Below, piece after piece: positions 33,382 to 41,199 of a DNA stretch of 55,624 bases. A program made the position numbers and the translations under genes. Under the pieces are notes generated by a model. That model made no database searches. It was not told the origin of the DNA and saw only the letters and a program-made list of their open reading frames with translations. How positions within the stretch are numbered: the stretch's first letter is position 1; the number at the start of each line of letters is the position of its first letter. Source of the DNA: a virus; the IMG/VR virus record IMGVR_UViG_3300049456_000112, positions 1 through 55,624 of that record; one strand, given 5' to 3'.

Positions 33382-33603
33382 ATGCAGAACGAGCCACAGA
33401 GGATTCAGGCGCTCGCCGACAAGATACGGGCGCTCCTTAACGCCGAGGAACGGCCGATCGCCATAAGCGCGCTCGCCGTCCTGAGCGGCGAAGTTCTCGG
33501 CAGCATCAGCATCGCGCCGCCCTATACGCGCGCCGCCTCGCTGCAGCTCTTCTGCCAGCAGGTTTCCGACATCACGGCAGCGGTTGAGGATCGGTCCCGA
33601 TGA
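33382..33603 (+). CDS. Small helical protein coupled to the resolvase
   Basis: 73 residues (GGGAGA upstream), all helical. Its stop overlaps the resolvase start by 4 bases, so it is made with the recombinase and may assist or regulate it. No family recognised. Confidence 0.55.
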   Translation: MQNEPQRIQALADKIRALLNAEERPIAISALAVLSGEVLGSISIAPPYTRAASLQLFCQQVSDITAAVEDRSR

Positions 33604-34262
33604 TCAAAGCGGTCGCATACATGAGGACGTCGTCCGGCGCCAACGTCGGCGAGGGGAAAGATAGCGAGCCGAGGCAGCGCGCCGCGATCGTTGGCTTCGC
33701 CGATGAGGCCGGATACGAGATCGATGAGAGCGATTTCTATTACGACAAGGTCGTTCGCGGCGCGGATGCGATCACGGATCGGCCGGGCTTCGCCGAAATG
33801 TTGGCCCGGATCGCGGCCAATGGCGTCCGCGTCATCATTGTTGAGAGCCCCGATCGCTTCGCGCGCGATCTCCTGATCCAGCTAACTGGCCACGATCATC
33901 TCAAAAAGCTCGGGATCACGCTGATCCCTGCATCGGCACCGGATTTCTTCACCGAGGAGACACCAACCGCCGTCCTGGTCCGGCAGGTGCTCGGCGCGAT
34001 TGCGCAGTTTGAGAAGGCAACCCTCGTTGCGAAGCTCCGCGCCGCCAGGGAACGCAAGAAGCAGGGTGGGGCGAAGTGCGAGGGGCGGAAGAGCATCGCA
34101 GAGAAGAGGCCGGAGGTGGTTCGGGATGCCATAGCGGTAGCAGATGGCGGGGCGAGCCTTCGGCATGTCTCAGCAGTCCTCGCGACGTTGGGCCATCTGA
34201 CCCCGAACGGGAAGCCCTATTCACCATCCGCAGTCCGGCGTATGCTTTCATCCGGAGATTAA
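33600..34262 (+). CDS. Small serine recombinase (resolvase/invertase type)
   Basis: 220 residues. Catalytic domain (about 1-150) with YMRTS (nucleophile Ser11), VVRGADAITDRPGFAEML, and SPDRFARD; a short C-terminal HTH region (about 165-218: RHVSAVLATLG...PYSPSAVRRML). It lacks the recombinase and zinc domains of the large integrase at 10.5 kb. It could resolve multimers or move a small segment: two near-identical 19-bp sequences lie directly downstream at 34264 and 34720, flanking two small genes. Confidence 0.88.
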   Translation: MIKAVAYMRTSSGANVGEGKDSEPRQRAAIVGFADEAGYEIDESDFYYDKVVRGADAITDRPGFAEMLARIAANGVRVIIVESPDRFARDLLIQLTGHDHLKKLGITLIPASAPDFFTEETPTAVLVRQVLGAIAQFEKATLVAKLRAARERKKQGGAKCEGRKSIAEKRPEVVRDAIAVADGGASLRHVSAVLATLGHLTPNGKPYSPSAVRRMLSSGD

Positions 34263-34736: not shown

Positions 34737-34791
34737 CCAAAAAATTCCAAGCACCGCTTGTTTAACAAAATCGCGCATGGCATCACACCGC

Positions 34792-34868
34792 TGCCCGTGC
34801 TGAAGGGATCGGTTACTTCTTCATATCGAAACTGAAGTCCAAAAACCGATTTCGTTGCTTGCCGGGCA
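34792..34868 (+). ncRNA. Y-RNA-like unit 1 (minimal hairpin)
   Basis: Outer stem TGCCCG/CGGGCA (34792-34797 with 34863-34868), then TGCTGAAG (34798-34805), inner stem ATCGGTT/AACCGAT (34808-34814 with 34844-34850) continued by ACTTC/GAAGT and TTC/GAA to a short ATATC-type loop, then TTCGTTGCTTGC on the 3' side. The same 5' TGCTGNAG, apical TACTTC and 3' Y-CG-N3-CTTGC signals recur in the next three units. It lacks a tRNA-like domain. Predicted to bind the Ro60 protein encoded downstream. Confidence 0.75.
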
Positions 34869-35013
34869 CCCACGGAGACCATGCTGCAGTTACCGGTTAC
34901 TTCGCCTTGTAAGCAAGAGGTCATTGGTTCGAGTCCAATCGAGGGGAAACCTTCGTAGCTCAGTTGGTAGAGCGCTTACGTCTCCGGTTTCGTCACTTGC
35001 TGGTTTCCGTGGG
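34869..35013 (+). ncRNA. Y-RNA-like unit 2 with tRNA-like domain permuted at the anticodon arm
   Basis: A 13-bp outer stem (34869-34881 with 35001-35013), TGCTGCAG, inner stem ACCGG/CCGGT, TTACTTC on the 5' side and TTCGTCACTTGC on the 3' side. Inside is a complete tRNA fold in permuted order: anticodon-stem strand GTAAGC (34909-34914), T arm ATTGG-TTCGAGT-CCAAT (34923-34939), acceptor-like stem CGAGGG-GAAA-CCTTCG closed by a tetraloop (34940-34955), D arm GCTC-AGTTGGTA-GAGC (34958-34973), and GCTTAC (34974-34979). CTTGTAA before the T arm equals a Thr(UGU) anticodon loop, hinting at origin from tRNA-Thr. Bacterial YrlA-type Y RNAs are known to carry tRNA-mimic modules. Confidence 0.88.
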
Positions 35014-35017
35014 GTCT

Positions 35018-35119
35018 GTGCGGGGTTGATGCTGTAGGCTGCCGTTACTTCGGTAAAGTGCCCTCGGGCGCAGCCGTTCAAATCGGCAAGCACGGCATCC
35101 GTTTCTTGCTCTACCCCGC
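35018..35119 (+). ncRNA. Y-RNA-like unit 3 with isolated T-arm-like hairpin
   Basis: Outer stem GCGGGGT/ACCCCGC (35020-35026 with 35113-35119) plus GA/TC, then TGCTGTAG (35030-35037), inner stem GCCGT/ACGGC (35041-35045 with 35092-35096), TTACTTC, and 3' CCGTTTCTTGC. The top holds a hairpin GTGCC-CTCG-GGCGC and a T-arm-like hairpin GCCG-TTCAAAT-CGGC (35073-35087). A reduced tRNA mimic. Confidence 0.8.
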
Positions 35120-35126
35120 TCAGGCC

Positions 35127-35285
35127 GATCTCTATGGGGCCGATGCTGCAGAAGACAGATACTTCTCCCCGCCAATGGGGAGGTAGCTCAACGGGTAGAG
35201 CGCCGGATTTCCAAATCCGGAGATGAGGGTTCGAATCCCTTCTCAAAGCTTCTGTCTCCGACACTTGCTCGGCCCCATAGAGATC
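35127..35285 (+). ncRNA. Y-RNA-like unit 4 carrying a circularly permuted tRNA with CCA in the loop
   Basis: A perfect 17-bp outer stem (35127-35143 with 35269-35285), TGCTGCAG, inner stem AGACAG/CTGTCT, TACTTC and 3' CCGACACTTGC. Inside, the acceptor 3' strand CTCCCC plus GCCA (35165-35174) comes first, two bases follow, then the acceptor 5' strand GGGGAG (35177), D arm GCTC/GAGC (35186-35201), anticodon arm CCGGA-N8-TCCGG (35203-35220) and T arm GAGGG-TTCGAAT-CCCTT (35225-35241). That is a tRNA opened between T arm and acceptor stem, with its 3' CCA joined to its 5' end. The anticodon loop has 8 bases (TTTCCAAA), so decoding is doubtful. Confidence 0.88.
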
Positions 35286-35325: not shown

Positions 35326-36642
35326 ATGGCCCAGATCAACGTCGCCAACAAAAATAACGAAAAGACCCACGAGGGCGCGCCCGCGTTCGGGCATCTGACG
35401 CCGATGCAGTCCCTGCGCCGATCGGTCATGTCCTGCCTCCTATGGGAGGACGAGTTCTACGAAGATGGGAAGACGATCGCCGATCGCATTGTCGAGACGG
35501 CGAAGGTCTGCCCGTCCGCCGATGTCGCCGCGCTCGCGATAGAGGCGCGCAAGGTCATGCACCTGCGCCATGTCCCGCTTCTTCTCCTGCGCGCCCTGGT
35601 GCGCACCGCGCCGCACCTTGTTGCGGAGACGATGCCGCGCGTGATCTCCCGCGCCGATGAGATGGGCGAGTTTCTCTCGCTCTACCTTGCGACCAACGAT
35701 GGCCGCCGGACCTTCCCGCGCCAGATGCGTCTTGGTCTCGGCCGCGCCATGGCCGGCTTCGACGAATATGCGCTCGCGAAGTACGATCGCGATGGCAAGG
35801 TGAAGCTGCGCGACGTCCTGCGCATTGCCCGGCCGAAGCCGTTTGGCCCGGAGCAGTCCGCGCTGTGGAAGCGCGCCGTCACGCGGACGCTCGCGACTCC
35901 CGACACGTGGGAGGTCGCGCTCTCTGGCGGCAAGGACAAGAAGGAGACGTTTGAGCGGCTGCTCAAGGGGCGGAAGCTCGGCTATCTCGCGCTGCTGCGC
36001 AATCTGCGCAACATGGCAGAGGCCAATGTTGACGTCGACCTGATCCGCGAGGCCATCCTGGCCCGCCGTGGCGGCGCACAGATGGTCTTCCCGTTCCGCT
36101 ATGTCGCCGCCGCGCGTGTTGCGCCGATGCACGAGCCGCAGCTCGATATCGCATTGCAGGCGGCGATTGCCGAGCTGCCGGTCCTCCCGGGCAAGACGAT
36201 TGTCCTGATCGACGTCTCCGGCTCCATGGACCATGCGATGTCCAGGAAATCGGACATGAAGCGGATCGATGCGGCGGCGGCGCTCGGGGCGATCGTCCAT
36301 GGCGACATCCGACTCTTCACGTTCTCTGATCTCCTTCGCGAGATTCCGCCACGTCACGGCATGGCCGGCGTCGATGCGATCGTGCGCTCGCAGCCGCACG
36401 GCGGCACCAACCTCGGCGCCGCCATCGCGCAAATTAACGCCAATGTGCCGGCGGATAGGCTCATCGTTGTGACCGATGAGCAGAGCCACGATGCGGTGCC
36501 GAACGCCTTCGCGAAAGGCTACATGATCAATGTTGCCAGCAACAAAAACGGTGTCGGGTACGGGAAGTGGACCCACATCGACGGCTTTTCGGAAAATGTG
36601 CTGCGCTACATCAACGAGATCGAGCGCAGCGAGGCGGCATGA
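35326..36642 (+). CDS. rsr: Ro60-family RNA-binding protein (TROVE + vWA)
   Basis: 438 residues, GGAG 7 bases before ATG 35326. The TROVE part (about 20-275) is a helical HEAT-like ring (VMHLRHVPLLLLRALVRTAP, KFGPEQ-like segments, RLLKGRKLGYLALLRNLRNM). The vWA domain (about 285-430) has the full metal site: DVSGS at 296-300, Thr361 in GGTNLGAA and Asp384 in VVTDEQ. Ro60/Rsr proteins form rings that bind Y RNAs on the outside and misfolded RNAs in the hole; in bacteria they can be tethered by Y RNA to an exoribonuclease. Four Y-RNA-like units lie directly upstream. Its stop overlaps the phosphoesterase start (ATGA), so the two proteins are made together. Length is slightly below the animal protein. 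Confidence 0.93.
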   Translation: MAQINVANKNNEKTHEGAPAFGHLTPMQSLRRSVMSCLLWEDEFYEDGKTIADRIVETAKVCPSADVAALAIEARKVMHLRHVPLLLLRALVRTAPHLVAETMPRVISRADEMGEFLSLYLATNDGRRTFPRQMRLGLGRAMAGFDEYALAKYDRDGKVKLRDVLRIARPKPFGPEQSALWKRAVTRTLATPDTWEVALSGGKDKKETFERLLKGRKLGYLALLRNLRNMAEANVDVDLIREAILARRGGAQMVFPFRYVAAARVAPMHEPQLDIALQAAIAELPVLPGKTIVLIDVSGSMDHAMSRKSDMKRIDAAAALGAIVHGDIRLFTFSDLLREIPPRHGMAGVDAIVRSQPHGGTNLGAAIAQINANVPADRLIVVTDEQSHDAVPNAFAKGYMINVASNKNGVGYGKWTHIDGFSENVLRYINEIERSEAA

Positions 36643-37301
36643 TCCGCTTCATCGGCGATGTGCATGGGAAGTTCGGCAGGTACAAAACGTTGCTTGCCGA
36701 CTCTCCCTTCCCGACCATCCAGGTCGGCGATATGGGCGTTGGCTTCCGGAAATGGCCGCACGGCGAGTGGAGCGCCAACCCGCCCTATGACCAGATGAAG
36801 GCCGGCGGCCACCGCTTCATTCGTGGCAACCACGACAATCCCGAGGTCTGCGCGATGCACTCGCAATGGATACCGGATGGCACCGTCGAGGGCGACATGA
36901 TGTTCATCGGCGGCGCGCTCTCGATCGACCGCGCCTATCGATACGAGGACTTCTCCTGGTGGCCGGATGAGGAACTGTCGCAGCAGCGCCTCGATGCGCT
37001 CGTCCATGAGTTTGCGATCGTAAGGCCCAAGATCATGGTGACTCACGAATGTCCGGAGAGCATCGCGGAGATGATCGTTGGTGACATCACCGATCTACGC
37101 GATGGCAAGAAGATGAAGATGGACCCGCGCCATGCTTCACGGACCCGGGTTGCGTTCCAGACGATGTTCGAGGCGCATCAGCCCAAGCTCTGGATATTCG
37201 GGCATTGGCATGTGCCGTTCGGCAGTGTCATAAATGGGACACGCTTCATCTGCCTGCCGGAACTCGCCCATATGGACATCGATCCGGAGCATTTGCCTTG
37301 A
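36639..37301 (+). CDS. Calcineurin-like metallophosphoesterase
   Basis: 220 residues. All metal-site motifs are present: D7-x-H9 (DVHG), D31 (VGDMG), N64-H65-D66 (GNHD), H136 (VTHE) and H189-x-H191 (GHWH). Fold and length are like phage Ser/Thr phosphatases and small phosphodiesterases; the GNHDNPEVC and WWPDEEL segments mark a distinct phage/bacterial group. Coupled to the Ro60 gene by a 4-base overlap. It may remove phosphates or open 2',3'-cyclic phosphates on RNA ends, but a protein or nucleotide substrate is equally possible. Confidence 0.9.
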   Translation: MIRFIGDVHGKFGRYKTLLADSPFPTIQVGDMGVGFRKWPHGEWSANPPYDQMKAGGHRFIRGNHDNPEVCAMHSQWIPDGTVEGDMMFIGGALSIDRAYRYEDFSWWPDEELSQQRLDALVHEFAIVRPKIMVTHECPESIAEMIVGDITDLRDGKKMKMDPRHASRTRVAFQTMFEAHQPKLWIFGHWHVPFGSVINGTRFICLPELAHMDIDPEHLP

Positions 37302-37514: not shown

Positions 37515-37784
37515 ATGCGAATTGACGAAGCCGAAAGACTGGAATTTACTGCAAATGGCCTGCAGGAAAGGGAAAACCTGATGCAATATAAATATCGTAA
37601 GAGATCGGCCTACGAGAGCATAGAGATCAAGCGAGATGCCGATGCATCAAGAAGGCGCCGCGAGGCCGCAGCGGCCCGGCCCGGCTGCAAGACGGTCAGC
37701 CCGGTCTGTAATGGGCAGGGCCACGCAGGGACCGGCTTCGTCGAAGGACGTGTCCAAAACGAGACAGCTATCGGTGTAAGATAA
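37515..37784 (+). CDS. Doubtful small basic protein overlapping the tRNA-like gene
   Basis: Up to 89 residues; the first 55 (MRIDEAERLEFTANGLQERE...) look coding, helical and charged. The last 35 run into non-coding-looking sequence and 15 bases of the tRNA-like gene. Real extent uncertain. Confidence 0.35.
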   Translation: MRIDEAERLEFTANGLQERENLMQYKYRKRSAYESIEIKRDADASRRRREAAAARPGCKTVSPVCNGQGHAGTGFVEGRVQNETAIGVR

Positions 37785-37844
37785 CGGTAGTCGGCCGGTC
37801 TCCAAAACCGTGCAGTGCAGGTTCGAATCCTGCCACCCTTGCCA
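37770..37844 (+). tRNA. tRNA-Trp-like gene (CCA anticodon) with imperfect acceptor stem
   Basis: T arm GCAGG-TTCGAAT-CCTGC (37817-37833), anticodon loop CTCCAAA with CCA in a CGGT/ACCG stem, a short D arm GAT-AACGGTA-type, and a genome-encoded GCCA end (37841-37844). The 7-base acceptor pairs at positions 1 and 4-7 but mismatches at 2 and 3. Sequence TGTCCAAAACGAGACA lies just upstream at 37751-37766. It could be a decayed or specialised tRNA. Confidence 0.65.
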
Positions 37845-37909: not shown

Positions 37910-38248
37910 CTACATCAACTCGATCAGCTTGCGCGCCCGCCCACGGTGTACCTCGCGCTGCTCCTCGGTATAGAACCGCTCATCGTCCCAGGCGCCGCCA
38001 TTGTAGGTCTCGGCCATGAACTTGGCGACGCGCTCAACATCGGCGGTCTCGCGCCCCTCCCAAAGCTTACTGAGCGCATCCGCAAGCAGGTTGCAGCGCT
38101 CGTTCGCGTCCCGATTGCGGGGCTCGCTCAGGCAGAGGAGCGCAAACTGCATGCCGCCAGGGCCGCTGAGGGTGACCCGATTGGTGTCCGGGTTGGGATG
38201 ATAGCTCAGTAATGTTTTCGTGCAGTAAAATGCTGGCAGTTTGCTCAT
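37910..38248 (-). CDS. Last gene of the sugar operon, function unknown
   Basis: 112 residues, with ATGA overlap to the synthase upstream. Soluble, alp/beta look: MSKLPAFYCTKTLLSYHPNP, GPGGMQFALLCLSEPRNRDA, then helical. No sugar-enzyme motif; the NRDANERCNLLADAL stretch resembles small phage proteins. Its co-translation with the operon is clear, its role not. Confidence 0.55.
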   Translation of the reverse strand: MSKLPAFYCTKTLLSYHPNPDTNRVTLSGPGGMQFALLCLSEPRNRDANERCNLLADALSKLWEGRETADVERVAKFMAETYNGGAWDDERFYTEEQREVHRGRARKLIELM

Positions 38249-39276
38249 GATGCGATCATCTCAAATGTCATTGGTTCGCCACGCGCGATATCGCGAGCCG
38301 CGCTCTTGCCAAGGAACATGTCAATCGCCGATGGGCGGGCGCCGTGTCCTGGCCGAATAGAGCGCACGGTCTCTTTCGTAAATACCTCGCCGGCCGCTAT
38401 GTCGGCAACGGCAAAAAGGCTCCGTCGCAGGGCTCTGTGGACATCTTCCGCAACGTGCTCTGGCGGCGGCTGCATCGCGGCCCAGGTGTCGTAAACACTC
38501 TCGGCCATGTTGGGAAATGACGTGTCATCGAGCGAGAATGCCGAGTCCTCGGTTTCCGGATGATGAAACGCGCGGAAATGCTTCTCTATAATGCAGGCAC
38601 CGAGCGCCGTGGCTGCGATCGGGATCAACGTGCCGCTGCTGTGATCGGAGAGGCCATCGATGAAGCCATACTTCACGCCGAACTTCAATCGCAAAAGGTT
38701 GGCCTCGTTGAACGGTGTCGGATAGGCCGAAACGCAGTGGAGCATGGCGTGCTGATTGAACCGGTGCGGCTCCAACGCCCGCGCGGCCTCGTTGATCTCG
38801 GCCCCGCTTGCCATGCCGGTGCTTAAAATGACCGGCACGCCGAGGCCGGCGGCATAGGCGATGAGCGGCGTATCGGTGATCTCAAAGGATGCGATCTTGA
38901 CGGCCGGCGCAGAAAGCTCGCGCATCAGATCGACCGAGGTCTCGTCGAAGACCGAGGCAAACCATGTGATGCCGACCTCTTCGGCCTTCTCCTTGATCTT
39001 CGGAAACCAGTCGAACGGCGTTTGCGTCAGGGAATAGAGTTCAAACAGGTTGCGGCCCTTCCACGGCCCCTCCCAAATGAAGAACTCGTCCCTGTCGCAA
39101 TTCAGGGTAATCGTCTCCGGCGTCACTGCCTGAAATTTAACCGCCTCGGCACCGCAGAGCTTCGCAAGCTCGATCAACTCCAATGCGCGATCGAGACTTC
39201 CGCCATGGTTACACGAGATTTCCGCGATGATGTAGGGCGGATGACGGTACCCGATCTCTCGTCCGGCGATGTTCAT
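38245..39276 (-). CDS. pseI: Nonulosonic acid synthase (PseI/NeuB family)
   Basis: 343 residues from ATG 39276, sharing a base with the upstream stop. The TIM-barrel (about 1-275) has IIAEISCNHGGSLDRALELI, AVKFQAVTPET, ILSTGMAS and IEKHF, the metal and phosphoenolpyruvate-binding motifs of NeuB-type enzymes; the C-terminal SAF antifreeze-like domain (about 285-343) has RRSLFAVADIAAGEVFTKET. Condenses a 6-carbon amino sugar with phosphoenolpyruvate to a 9-carbon acid. Residues favour the pseudaminic-acid (PseI) branch, but legionaminic acid is possible. Confidence 0.9.
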   Translation of the reverse strand: MNIAGREIGYRHPPYIIAEISCNHGGSLDRALELIELAKLCGAEAVKFQAVTPETITLNCDRDEFFIWEGPWKGRNLFELYSLTQTPFDWFPKIKEKAEEVGITWFASVFDETSVDLMRELSAPAVKIASFEITDTPLIAYAAGLGVPVILSTGMASGAEINEAARALEPHRFNQHAMLHCVSAYPTPFNEANLLRLKFGVKYGFIDGLSDHSSGTLIPIAATALGACIIEKHFRAFHHPETEDSAFSLDDTSFPNMAESVYDTWAAMQPPPEHVAEDVHRALRRSLFAVADIAAGEVFTKETVRSIRPGHGARPSAIDMFLGKSAARDIARGEPMTFEMIAS

Positions 39277-39449
39277 CAAAGCTGCTCCAGAAGAAGTTCG
39301 GCCAGACGCTTGGCCAGATGGTAGATATCGATGCTCTTGAGATCGTCCGGGACAGAGAGCATGGCCACCTTATGACCGAACGTCTTTTCCGCCTCCGGCG
39401 ACATGATGATGTTGTCCCGAGGGTCGTAAATCACATGGATTTTCGGCAT
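39276..39449 (-). CDS. 57-residue protein in the sugar operon
   Basis: Short frame MPKIHVIYDPRDNIIMSPEA... ending LAKRLAELLLEQL. It starts right after the aminotransferase stop and shares a base with the synthase start. Alpha/beta look; function unknown. Its tight fit in the operon supports it. Confidence 0.6.
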   Translation of the reverse strand: MPKIHVIYDPRDNIIMSPEAEKTFGHKVAMLSVPDDLKSIDIYHLAKRLAELLLEQL

Positions 39450-40571
39450 TCATAGCACCTCCTCCGCAGCCTTCTTGAACGCATCCCCGATCATTTTGAT
39501 CTGCGCGTCGGTCGGGCTCCAGGCGCAGTTTTCGAAATAGAAGAGCCGGTTATCATGCAGGTCCTCGGCCACAGGGCAGGCCCGCGCGTGCTTCTTGAAC
39601 GGCGCATTGCGATAGAGCGGCGCCTGATATCCTTCGACAATCGGCACGCCGGCCGCGCGCAGGTTCGCGCAGAAGAATCGGCGTCGCTTCTCAATCAGGA
39701 ACGGGATGGTGTAATACACGTGCGTGCAGCCCCGTTTGACAATCGGCGGGCGGATGCCGGGGATGTCGCCGATCGCCGAGATGATGGCCTCGGCCTGCGC
39801 AATGCGCCCGTTGATGATCTCCCGGCCGCGAGAAAGCTGAACCAGAGCAATCGCCGCGCAGACCTCTGGCATGCGCAGGTTCAATCCAAGCTCGCCGCCG
39901 ATCTCGCCGTGGTTGATGAAGTCTCGCATGGCCATGGCGAGATGCTCATCGTCCGTCGTTATCATCCCGCCTTCGCCGCACTGGATCGGCTTGTGCACAT
40001 TGAGCGACCAGACGCCGATCGTGCCCATGGTACCGACATGGCGGCCATGGGCCATGGCAAACGGCGACTGCGCATTGTCCTCGATCAGATAGACCGGGTT
40101 GCGGCGGCCCAAGCTCCATTCATTTCTGCCGAGATCGCAGGGATGGCCGAACAGGTTGGTGCTAAAAATCGCCCGCGTGCTCTCCGGCATTGGCGGGCAG
40201 ACGAGGCCGAACGTCTCATCTTCGACATCGACGAAGAATGGCGTCGCCTTCGTAAACATCGGCGCGGCAGCCGTGGCGCTCATGGTCATCGCGGAGACGG
40301 CAAATCTGTCGCCGAATCCGAGATCGATGGCAAAGGCGGCGGCCAGGAGGCCCGAGGTTGCGCTATTGCAGGCGATGGCGTGCGCCACATCGAAGGTTTC
40401 GCACCAAGCAGATTCGAGCGCGCGTACATATGTGCCGCCATCGAATTTGCCGGCGAGATAGCCGGAGAGCGGGGCATGGCCGCTGGTACACATCGCCAAG
40501 GCGGTAAGGTTGCCGACCATATTCCGCTCTTCAAGGCCGATTCCATTGAACGGCAGGATTGGCCCCATCAT
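39450..40571 (-). CDS. DegT/DnrJ/EryC1-type sugar aminotransferase (PseC-like)
   Basis: 373 residues from ATG 40571 (or the next codon). Fold-type I PLP enzyme: substrate part with CNSATSGLLAAAFAIDLGFG, the ligand VYLIEDNAQS, and Lys194 in NVHKPIQCGEGGMI, the usual PLP-lysine position of the DegT family. It would add an amino group to a 4-keto sugar made by the dehydratase. Tail half resembles the family. It abuts the small gene downstream. Confidence 0.88.
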   Translation of the reverse strand: MMGPILPFNGIGLEERNMVGNLTALAMCTSGHAPLSGYLAGKFDGGTYVRALESAWCETFDVAHAIACNSATSGLLAAAFAIDLGFGDRFAVSAMTMSATAAAPMFTKATPFFVDVEDETFGLVCPPMPESTRAIFSTNLFGHPCDLGRNEWSLGRRNPVYLIEDNAQSPFAMAHGRHVGTMGTIGVWSLNVHKPIQCGEGGMITTDDEHLAMAMRDFINHGEIGGELGLNLRMPEVCAAIALVQLSRGREIINGRIAQAEAIISAIGDIPGIRPPIVKRGCTHVYYTIPFLIEKRRRFFCANLRAAGVPIVEGYQAPLYRNAPFKKHARACPVAEDLHDNRLFYFENCAWSPTDAQIKMIGDAFKKAAEEVL

Positions 40572-40747
40572 TTCAGCACACAGAAAGCACGTATTTTGCT
40601 GTCTGAGATTTCCCATGCCCTTGCCTGCGCACGCATGACATCCGCCGCCTTCTCGCAGCGATCGACGCTTGTAAATTCCGTCACCGAGATGATGGGGCCG
40701 GACACGTACCCGCCCATCCAGGTCATCACGAATAGGACCGCAATCAT
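40568..40747 (-). CDS. Small exported or membrane-anchored protein
   Basis: 59 residues; N-terminal hydrophobic stretch MIAVLFVMTWMGGYVSGPII could be a signal anchor, followed by a soluble part with two Cys (VDRCEKAAD and FCVLK). Overlaps by 4 bases with the acetyltransferase and by 1-4 bases with the aminotransferase. Function unknown. Confidence 0.55.
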   Translation of the reverse strand: MIAVLFVMTWMGGYVSGPIISVTEFTSVDRCEKAADVMRAQARAWEISDSKIRAFCVLK

Positions 40748-41199
40748 GGTGCTGCTTCCTTGCGATAGTAGACAAACTGGTCGTCGCCGCCGGGCATCCT
40801 ACGGAAGCCGCAGCGCTCAAACACTCGGCGCGAGGGATCGTTGTGCGTTCTAATGGTCGCCTTCAGGGTAAACTCCGACATCAGCGCGCAGGCATCGTCC
40901 AAAATGGTCGCCGCGAGTCCCTTGCCGCGCCATCGCGGCGCGAGCGTTATGGAGACCTCGTAAACCATGACATCATCCCGCGCCGCGTCGAAGCGGACGA
41001 CGCCATAATTGCCGTAATCGCTCTCGGCAATGAGGACCCGGTGCTGCGGGTAGCCGTTCTGGACGTTGAACTGCATCCAATGGTCATGGTTTTCGCGCAG
41101 GACAGGAAGCGTGCTTCTAAACGCCGCCCGTGTCACCGGATCGTTGCGCCAGGAGAAAAGCTCGTCGGAATCGCGCATGGTGGCAGGACGGAGCTGCAT
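40744..41199 (-). CDS. GNAT acetyltransferase (PseH/RimJ-like)
   Basis: 151 residues. GNAT fold: MQLRPATMRDSDELFSWRND start (the PseH/RimJ type), coenzyme-A loop APRWRGKGLAATIL, and a later NDPSRRVFERCGFRRM. In a nonulosonate pathway it would N-acetylate the amino sugar. The start shares a base with the upstream stop. Confidence 0.85.
   Translation of the reverse strand: MQLRPATMRDSDELFSWRNDPVTRAAFRSTLPVLRENHDHWMQFNVQNGYPQHRVLIAESDYGNYGVVRFDAARDDVMVYEVSITLAPRWRGKGLAATILDDACALMSEFTLKATIRTHNDPSRRVFERCGFRRMPGGDDQFVYYRKEAAP

Follow-up and report, generated by a model that had tools for sequence, protein, structure and literature searches.

YrlA, the bacterial Y RNA closest to the RNAs considered here, is treated in the ARTEMIS paper as a circular permutation of tRNA on the basis of its structure, PDB 6CU1 (PMC11472068). 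It is described elsewhere as being bound by Rsr via its stem and as being modified by the tRNA enzymes DusA and TruB (PMC8394870). For Salmonella, YrlA has been presented as an uncut tRNA mimic and proposed as a competitive inhibitor of an anticodon nuclease (PMC7790460). Carriage of YrlA by phages has already been published (PMC7765460), and TROVE proteins have been noted in jumbo phages (PMC7824862). Permuted tRNA genes have their reported junctions in the D loop, the anticodon loop, the T stem and the T loop (PMC3978253). A literature search by title and start of abstract, which left the main Y RNA papers uncovered, returned no report of a kept anticodon hairpin or of several opening points.

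A row of Y-RNA-like units before a phage Ro60 gene

The DNA analysed, 55,624 bases of a virus record, is referred to below in its entirety as the window. Upstream of the open reading frame for a TROVE protein lies a row of four Y-RNA-like units (Table 1), each of which has TTACTTC or ATACTTC as its 5' motif and CTTGC as its 3' motif. Unit 2, the second in the row, is the main subject here. Unit 1 is weak, because its fold z is only -1.74.

Similar arrays precede TROVE genes in Xanthomonas, Caulobacter, Brevundimonas and Rhizobium phages. Relatives of the Ro60 gene were gathered from 31 viral loci and 21 genome loci by protein-based scans, along with 89 phage records, and the UACUUC motif and base of unit 2 are common to the units upstream of Ro60 genes in the related loci. 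In a set of 74 loci, which leaves out the near-duplicates L020, L023, L173, L203-L205 and L207-L210, at least one tRNA-like match led by a Ro motif was found in 54, and no such match was found in the other 20. In crAss001 (L198), the 1000 nt upstream of the TROVE gene yielded no tRNA-like unit.

Just upstream of the array lies a resolvase-type gene, and the end of the Ro60 gene is overlapped by a metallophosphoesterase ORF. The latter was considered as a conserved partner and dropped, there being 0 tblastn matches to it in the related loci; since it is not conserved, no neighbour fixes the role of the array.

Table 1. Coordinates of the array, of the parts of unit 2 and of nearby genes in the window
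Feature	Position	Strand	Description
Resolvase-type gene	33600..34262		Pfam Resolvase, E 9.7e-24
Unit 1	34773..34875 (ends approximate)	+	plain Y-RNA-like hairpin without tRNA part; motif GGTTACTTC and TTGCTTGC (Ro-type)
Unit 2	34870..35012	+	base stem with UACUUC motif and permuted tRNA-like module; fold z -3.0
Anticodon hairpin of unit 2	34904..34914	+	GC CTTGTAA GC, tRNA positions 30-40
Rest of the unit 2 module	34915..34979	+	tRNA 41-43 and variable loop, T arm, GAAA-capped acceptor stem, D arm, tRNA 26-29
Unit 3	35018..35121	+	plain Y-RNA-like, without convincing tRNA part; CGTTACTTC motif; fold z -4.45
Unit 4	35134..35281	+	Y-RNA-like; tRNA opened between T arm and acceptor; fold z -5.33
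Ro60/TROVE protein gene	35326..36642	+	438 aa; Pfam TROVE, E 8.8e-13
Metallophosphoesterase ORF	36567..37301		overlaps the end of the Ro60 gene
tRNA-Trp gene	37770..37844		D arm of odd form; lies some 1 kb past the Ro60 gene
NeuB-type and DegT/DnrJ-type sugar genes	38245..40820	-	

Anticodon hairpin and arm order of unit 2

The module of unit 2 (34904-34979) stands on a Ro60-type base and runs in the order T arm, tetraloop-capped acceptor stem, D arm, as the initial annotation had proposed. Its 5' part reads UACUUC and then GC CTTGTAA GC AAG AGGTC (34904-34922), with the T arm next; the capped acceptor hairpin follows as CGAGGG-GAAA-CCTTCG (34940-34955), then the D arm, TAGCTCAGTTGGTAGAGC (34956-34973), and last G CTT AC up to 34979. 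Besides the sequence itself, two models confirm this order. The Rfam YrlA model (RF02553) aligns 34915-34978 with 37.2 bits and an E-value of 1.6e-6. In the tandem-tRNA profile, made from 78 tRNAs in tandem, a permuted tRNA gives a single unbroken alignment, the ends of which mark its break; unit 2 begins at tRNA position 29 and comes full circle to it (hmm 29-105, 35.1 bits, E 1.7e-9). The reading of the unit as a permuted tRNA-like domain on a Ro60-type base is further supported by its fold z and by the motif and base common to the related loci. Because the acceptor ends are joined by the GAAA tetraloop, unit 2 cannot be charged or given CCA; capped and without CCA, it lacks the open, CCA-ended acceptor of a working tRNA.

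A break in the anticodon arm had also been claimed. The location stands, but the break is not a simple one: a hairpin with the pairs 30-31:39-40 can form, and the break falls between positions 29 and 30. This feature was followed in 59 units with T-acceptor-D order, collected from the loci of the protein-based scans and 12 added later, with the near-duplicates L020, L023 and L173 left out. In a set of 19 units with exactly 22 nt from the Ro motif to tRNA position 52, the Ro motif, T loop and D arm served to assign positions. Here, tRNA-like pairing is present in 19/19 units at 27:43, 28:42, 30:40 and 31:39 and in 12/19 at 29:41; U33 and R37 occur in all 19 and A38 in 16, while 34-36 are variable, and the closing pairs of the hairpin covary (GC/GC, GA/TC, AT/AT). 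The hairpin pairs 30-31:39-40 form in 38 of 38 cases against a mean of 30.1 with permuted partners (0 of 5000 permutations as high), and the stem pairs 27-29:41-43 in 50 of 57 against a mean of 43.3 (3 of 5000). When the 27-29 pairing is slid by -2, -1, +1 and +2, the 50 pairs found in register become 27, 26, 30 and 40, respectively.

A looser spacing of 20-22 nt takes in 39 of the 59 units. A closed hairpin with U33 and R37 is found in 31 of these and fails in 8, compared with a mean of 1.4 and a maximum of 6 in 300 shuffles of the leaders under the same scoring; the better of two registers was counted for real and shuffled leaders alike, and the shuffles ignore relatedness, although the genome loci are drawn from several phyla. 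Considering these pairing statistics, and that YrlA is without the hairpin, the Ro60 stem in this sub-type is inserted between tRNA positions 29 and 30.

In unit 2, GUAAGC can also pair with GCUUAC (6/6), consuming loop bases, and this competing 6-bp helix wins in the fold of the isolated module. At least 5 of the 6 pairs of such a helix are available in 4 of the 19 units; the helix is lacking in others, for example the L003 and L038 units. As modelled, the anticodon hairpin of unit 2 itself may not form, being melted by the competing helix. A unit of another locus (L007), about -278 from Ro60, has an anticodon arm with the loop CTCTAAA (CTA, which would read UAG) and then a T arm, without an acceptor or D arm.

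tRNA-Thr and the opening points of the units

The initial annotation had recognised CTTGTAA as the anticodon loop of tRNA-Thr(UGU) and had taken unit 2 to be derived from that tRNA. The loop assignment is correct: 3 of 258 tRNA sequences carry the loop, all of them Thr(tgt), although the loop list and isotype ranks from this set are rough, as it holds a few Y units that ARAGORN miscalled as tRNA (e.g. L052:2521). The comparisons did not support descent from tRNA-Thr. With the loop masked, Thr is fourth in rank in the same rough set, and the body of the unit is closest to tRNA-Ala. When un-permuted unit 2 was compared with 289 alphaproteobacterial genomes, the 12 matches listed (in 9 genomes, at E 1e-11) were to tRNA-Ala in nine cases and to Thr, Arg and Lys in one each, the best being Ala(UGC) at 87%. 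Nor was Thr singled out within one order, where 121 of 121 genomes match un-permuted unit 2 and the best match is 85% over 55 nt: Thr shares the first place with Lys and Ala.

A different ranking came from 87 bacterial tRNAs compared as self-tandems, many of them from 30 loci (L085-L114) picked for likeness to unit 2. The best tRNA there is tRNA-Thr(UGU), with 77% over 73 nt and 55.2 bits, but the best single match of all, at 58.3 bits, is another Y unit. The annotation had itself held that a closer match to an already permuted YrlA, with no tie to tRNA-Thr, would speak against its proposal; the YrlA order and the Y unit as best match go that way, whereas the Thr(UGU) tie among the tRNAs does not. 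Over four tests, in only one of which Thr came first among tRNAs, an origin of unit 2 from tRNA-Thr was rejected as unproven.

The anticodon letters themselves point in the same direction. CTTGTAA is also present in L011, L043, Xanthomonas phage 10KY502B and Microbacterium phage Big4, but the loop of 10KY502B is replaced in phage Olaya by CTGTTAA, a Thr-to-Asn-type switch, and the loop ATCTGGA of CcrColossus corresponds to ATTAGGA in CcrPW. Eight comparisons of corresponding hairpins were made between arrays 80-98% identical, in a set free of a repeated row and of a near-identical Rhizobium phage duplicate. The anticodon sites 34-36 changed in 7 of 24 cases, the flanks (30-33 and 37-43) in 0 of 88 and the following body in 31 of 494. 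The difference has a p-value of 1e-5 against the flanks and 9e-4 against the body if letters are independent; they are not fully so, as all seven changes fall in four comparisons. Because these letters drift between close relatives, the 7-mer does not name a donor and unit 2 is not traceable to tRNA-Thr. The changes could reflect relaxed constraint rather than selection.

The claim of two opening points in one array was upheld by the tandem-tRNA profile, with unit 2 opened at 29/30 and unit 4 between the T arm and the acceptor. Unit 4 consists of the acceptor 3' strand with GCCA (35164-35174), two letters, and then the acceptor 5' strand, the D arm and intact anticodon and T arms; in the profile, hmm 77-142 corresponds to tRNA 1 to 66, after the acceptor 3' strand, and the Rfam tRNA model covers 35183-35242 with 46.8 bits. 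The anticodon arm reads TTTCCAAA, with an 8-nt loop, or a 6-nt loop and an extra pair. Over 190 genomes, five of the six best matches to unit 4 are tRNA-Trp. The tRNA-Trp gene of the window was rejected as its source: it agrees in 44 of 74 letters, whereas chromosomal tRNA-Trp genes reach 84% over 64 nt.

By the profile, the 89 Ro-led matches are opened in the anticodon arm (64), between T arm and acceptor (3), between acceptor and D arm (2) or in the D loop (1), the remaining 19 being partial or other; two or more of these classes occur together in four loci, the window included. Inspection by eye adds more D-loop openings, in Acidobacteria and Caulobacter phages, and openings inside the anticodon loop that leave a 5-bp stem (e.g. 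L034 at -808 and L044 at -550). All three T/acceptor units (unit 4 and those of L011 and L199) keep a CCA-like end in the loop. The modules of CcrColossus, CcrPW and Kabachok have a long variable arm and a D arm that, judged by eye, we take to be of Leu type.

Repeated, independent grafting of tRNAs, as the initial annotation envisaged, draws support from the Trp-like unit 4 and from these Leu-like modules, but not from unit 2. Within the anticodon-stem class, common descent is simpler, because, for 46 of the 59 T-acceptor-D modules, none of the 87 tRNAs is a nearer match than the nearest other Y module. Some Y units stand in phage annotations as tRNAs: L191:2485-2552 (Xanthomonas phage 10KY502B) as tRNA-Thr, L192:2152-2219 (CcrColossus) as tRNA-Gln, and those of Gurke and Kikimora as tRNA-Ser.

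Possible role and relation to known Y RNAs

The best explanation, to which we assign a probability of roughly 0.6, is that unit 2 is a Y-type RNA in which the Ro60 stem is inserted into a permuted tRNA mimic with a kept anticodon arm, and that it engages a tRNA-binding factor. The base, with its UACUUC motif, would be bound by the phage Ro60 protein. The top is a circularly permuted tRNA mimic in the YrlA order, with its acceptor ends joined by GAAA. In this sub-type, with the Ro60 stem placed between positions 29 and 30, the anticodon stem retains 5 bp and is nicked once, and its 7-nt loop includes U33 and R37. To judge from YrlA, the mimic would then tether or divert a tRNA-binding factor at the Ro60 particle; as an anticodon loop is displayed, our preferred guess for the target is a reader of such loops, for instance a modifying enzyme or an anticodon nuclease. 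By analogy, the role of a tRNA mimic tethered to Ro60 is a likely one. Perhaps the unit is an anticodon decoy; a constant frame with changing letters would fit such a bait. A bolder and rather improbable extension is that the tRNA mimics in phage Ro60 particles form a whole panel, each opened wherever a Ro60 stem is best inserted and all with a constant U-turn frame and fast-changing anticodons, and that they serve as rotating baits or decoys for host anticodon nucleases.

Could unit 2 simply be an ordinary YrlA, a divergent family member whose 11-nt hairpin is a filler loop without meaning? The arm order and the neighbouring gene are shared, the Rfam E-value is low, and a plasmid unit of Deinococcus gobiensis (L201, about -135 from Ro60) has a TCGG-loop hairpin, CAT-TCGG-ATG, at the same place instead of the anticodon hairpin. 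However, the score of unit 2 lies below the family cut-off of 69 bits, a YrlA match above that cut-off was found in 0 of 13 related genomes, and the hairpin frame is unchanged in the eight close comparisons. U33 and R37 in all 19 units, together with this invariant frame, argue against a filler, which would not need them, and we consider the ordinary YrlA an unlikely answer, if by no means a negligible one. Far less probable still is that tRNA-Thr(UGU) was grafted recently and separately, with the opening in its anticodon arm. The exact loop, which recurs in other units, and the first place among the 87 self-tandem tRNAs speak for it, but the wider search favours tRNA-Ala, Thr falls back once the loop is masked, the letters shift between close relatives, and the opening region is shared by the many units of the anticodon-arm class.

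The question of where the module came from is in part separate. It may have arisen at the junction of two neighbouring tRNA genes in a phage tRNA array, an origin compatible with the Ro60-tethered mimic that we prefer. The T-acceptor-D order exists at such a junction, so the permuted order would arise without a circular step. For permuted tRNA genes it has been suggested in print that a tandem repeat lost its outer segments (PMC3978253). By blastn, unit 2 matches adjacent phage tRNA pairs (tRNA-Arg/tRNA-Asn and tRNA-Thr/tRNA-Ala), tRNA arrays lie within a few kb in many related loci, and the units opened between T arm and acceptor keep CCA and a short spacer. Against this, the two halves of unit 2 pair without a mismatch (CTT/AAG), as would be expected of a single tRNA, although selection could explain that, and the donor pair was not found. 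A junction origin is a serious possibility, at somewhat less than even odds.

If the preferred explanation is true, some Y RNAs are almost complete tRNAs in which the split falls on a single phosphodiester of the anticodon stem, rather than tRNAs that have lost their anticodon arm, and other split points are used within the same arrays. What tRNA mimicry does for Y RNAs could then be tested directly by swapping the displayed anticodon for any other, and the tRNA-Thr, tRNA-Gln and tRNA-Ser labels on such RNAs in phage annotations would be explained.

How, then, does unit 2 relate to the described systems? Algal and archaeal circularly permuted tRNA genes likewise have tRNA halves in swapped order, but they are spliced into working tRNAs, whereas unit 2 is tetraloop-capped and on a Ro60-type stem. 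The Deinococcus Y RNA (RF01053) is similar in its UUACUUC-type motif and base stem, yet its match to unit 4 is weak (24.6 bits, far under the 80-bit cut-off) and its tRNA content is different. The likeness to YrlA is closer, extending to the Ro60-type base, the order of T arm, capped acceptor and D arm, and the adjacent Ro60 gene; known YrlA already has this arm order, so there is no novelty in the permutation as such. Unit 2 differs in holding an anticodon hairpin where the Rfam YrlA consensus has no positions. A 12-nt insertion is needed to align the unit of L021 to that model, and an authentic Rhizobium etli YrlA, a plasmid RNA scoring 98.4 bits, is without the hairpin. Compared with the proposal for Salmonella YrlA, the units here still show an anticodon-like loop, with varied letters. 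Unit 2 adjoins a Ro60/Rsr gene and has a long base stem with the Ro motif, as do bacterial Y RNAs in the wide sense. It is a variant of this known type of bacterial RNA, with two departures from YrlA: the kept anticodon hairpin and the several opening points in related arrays.
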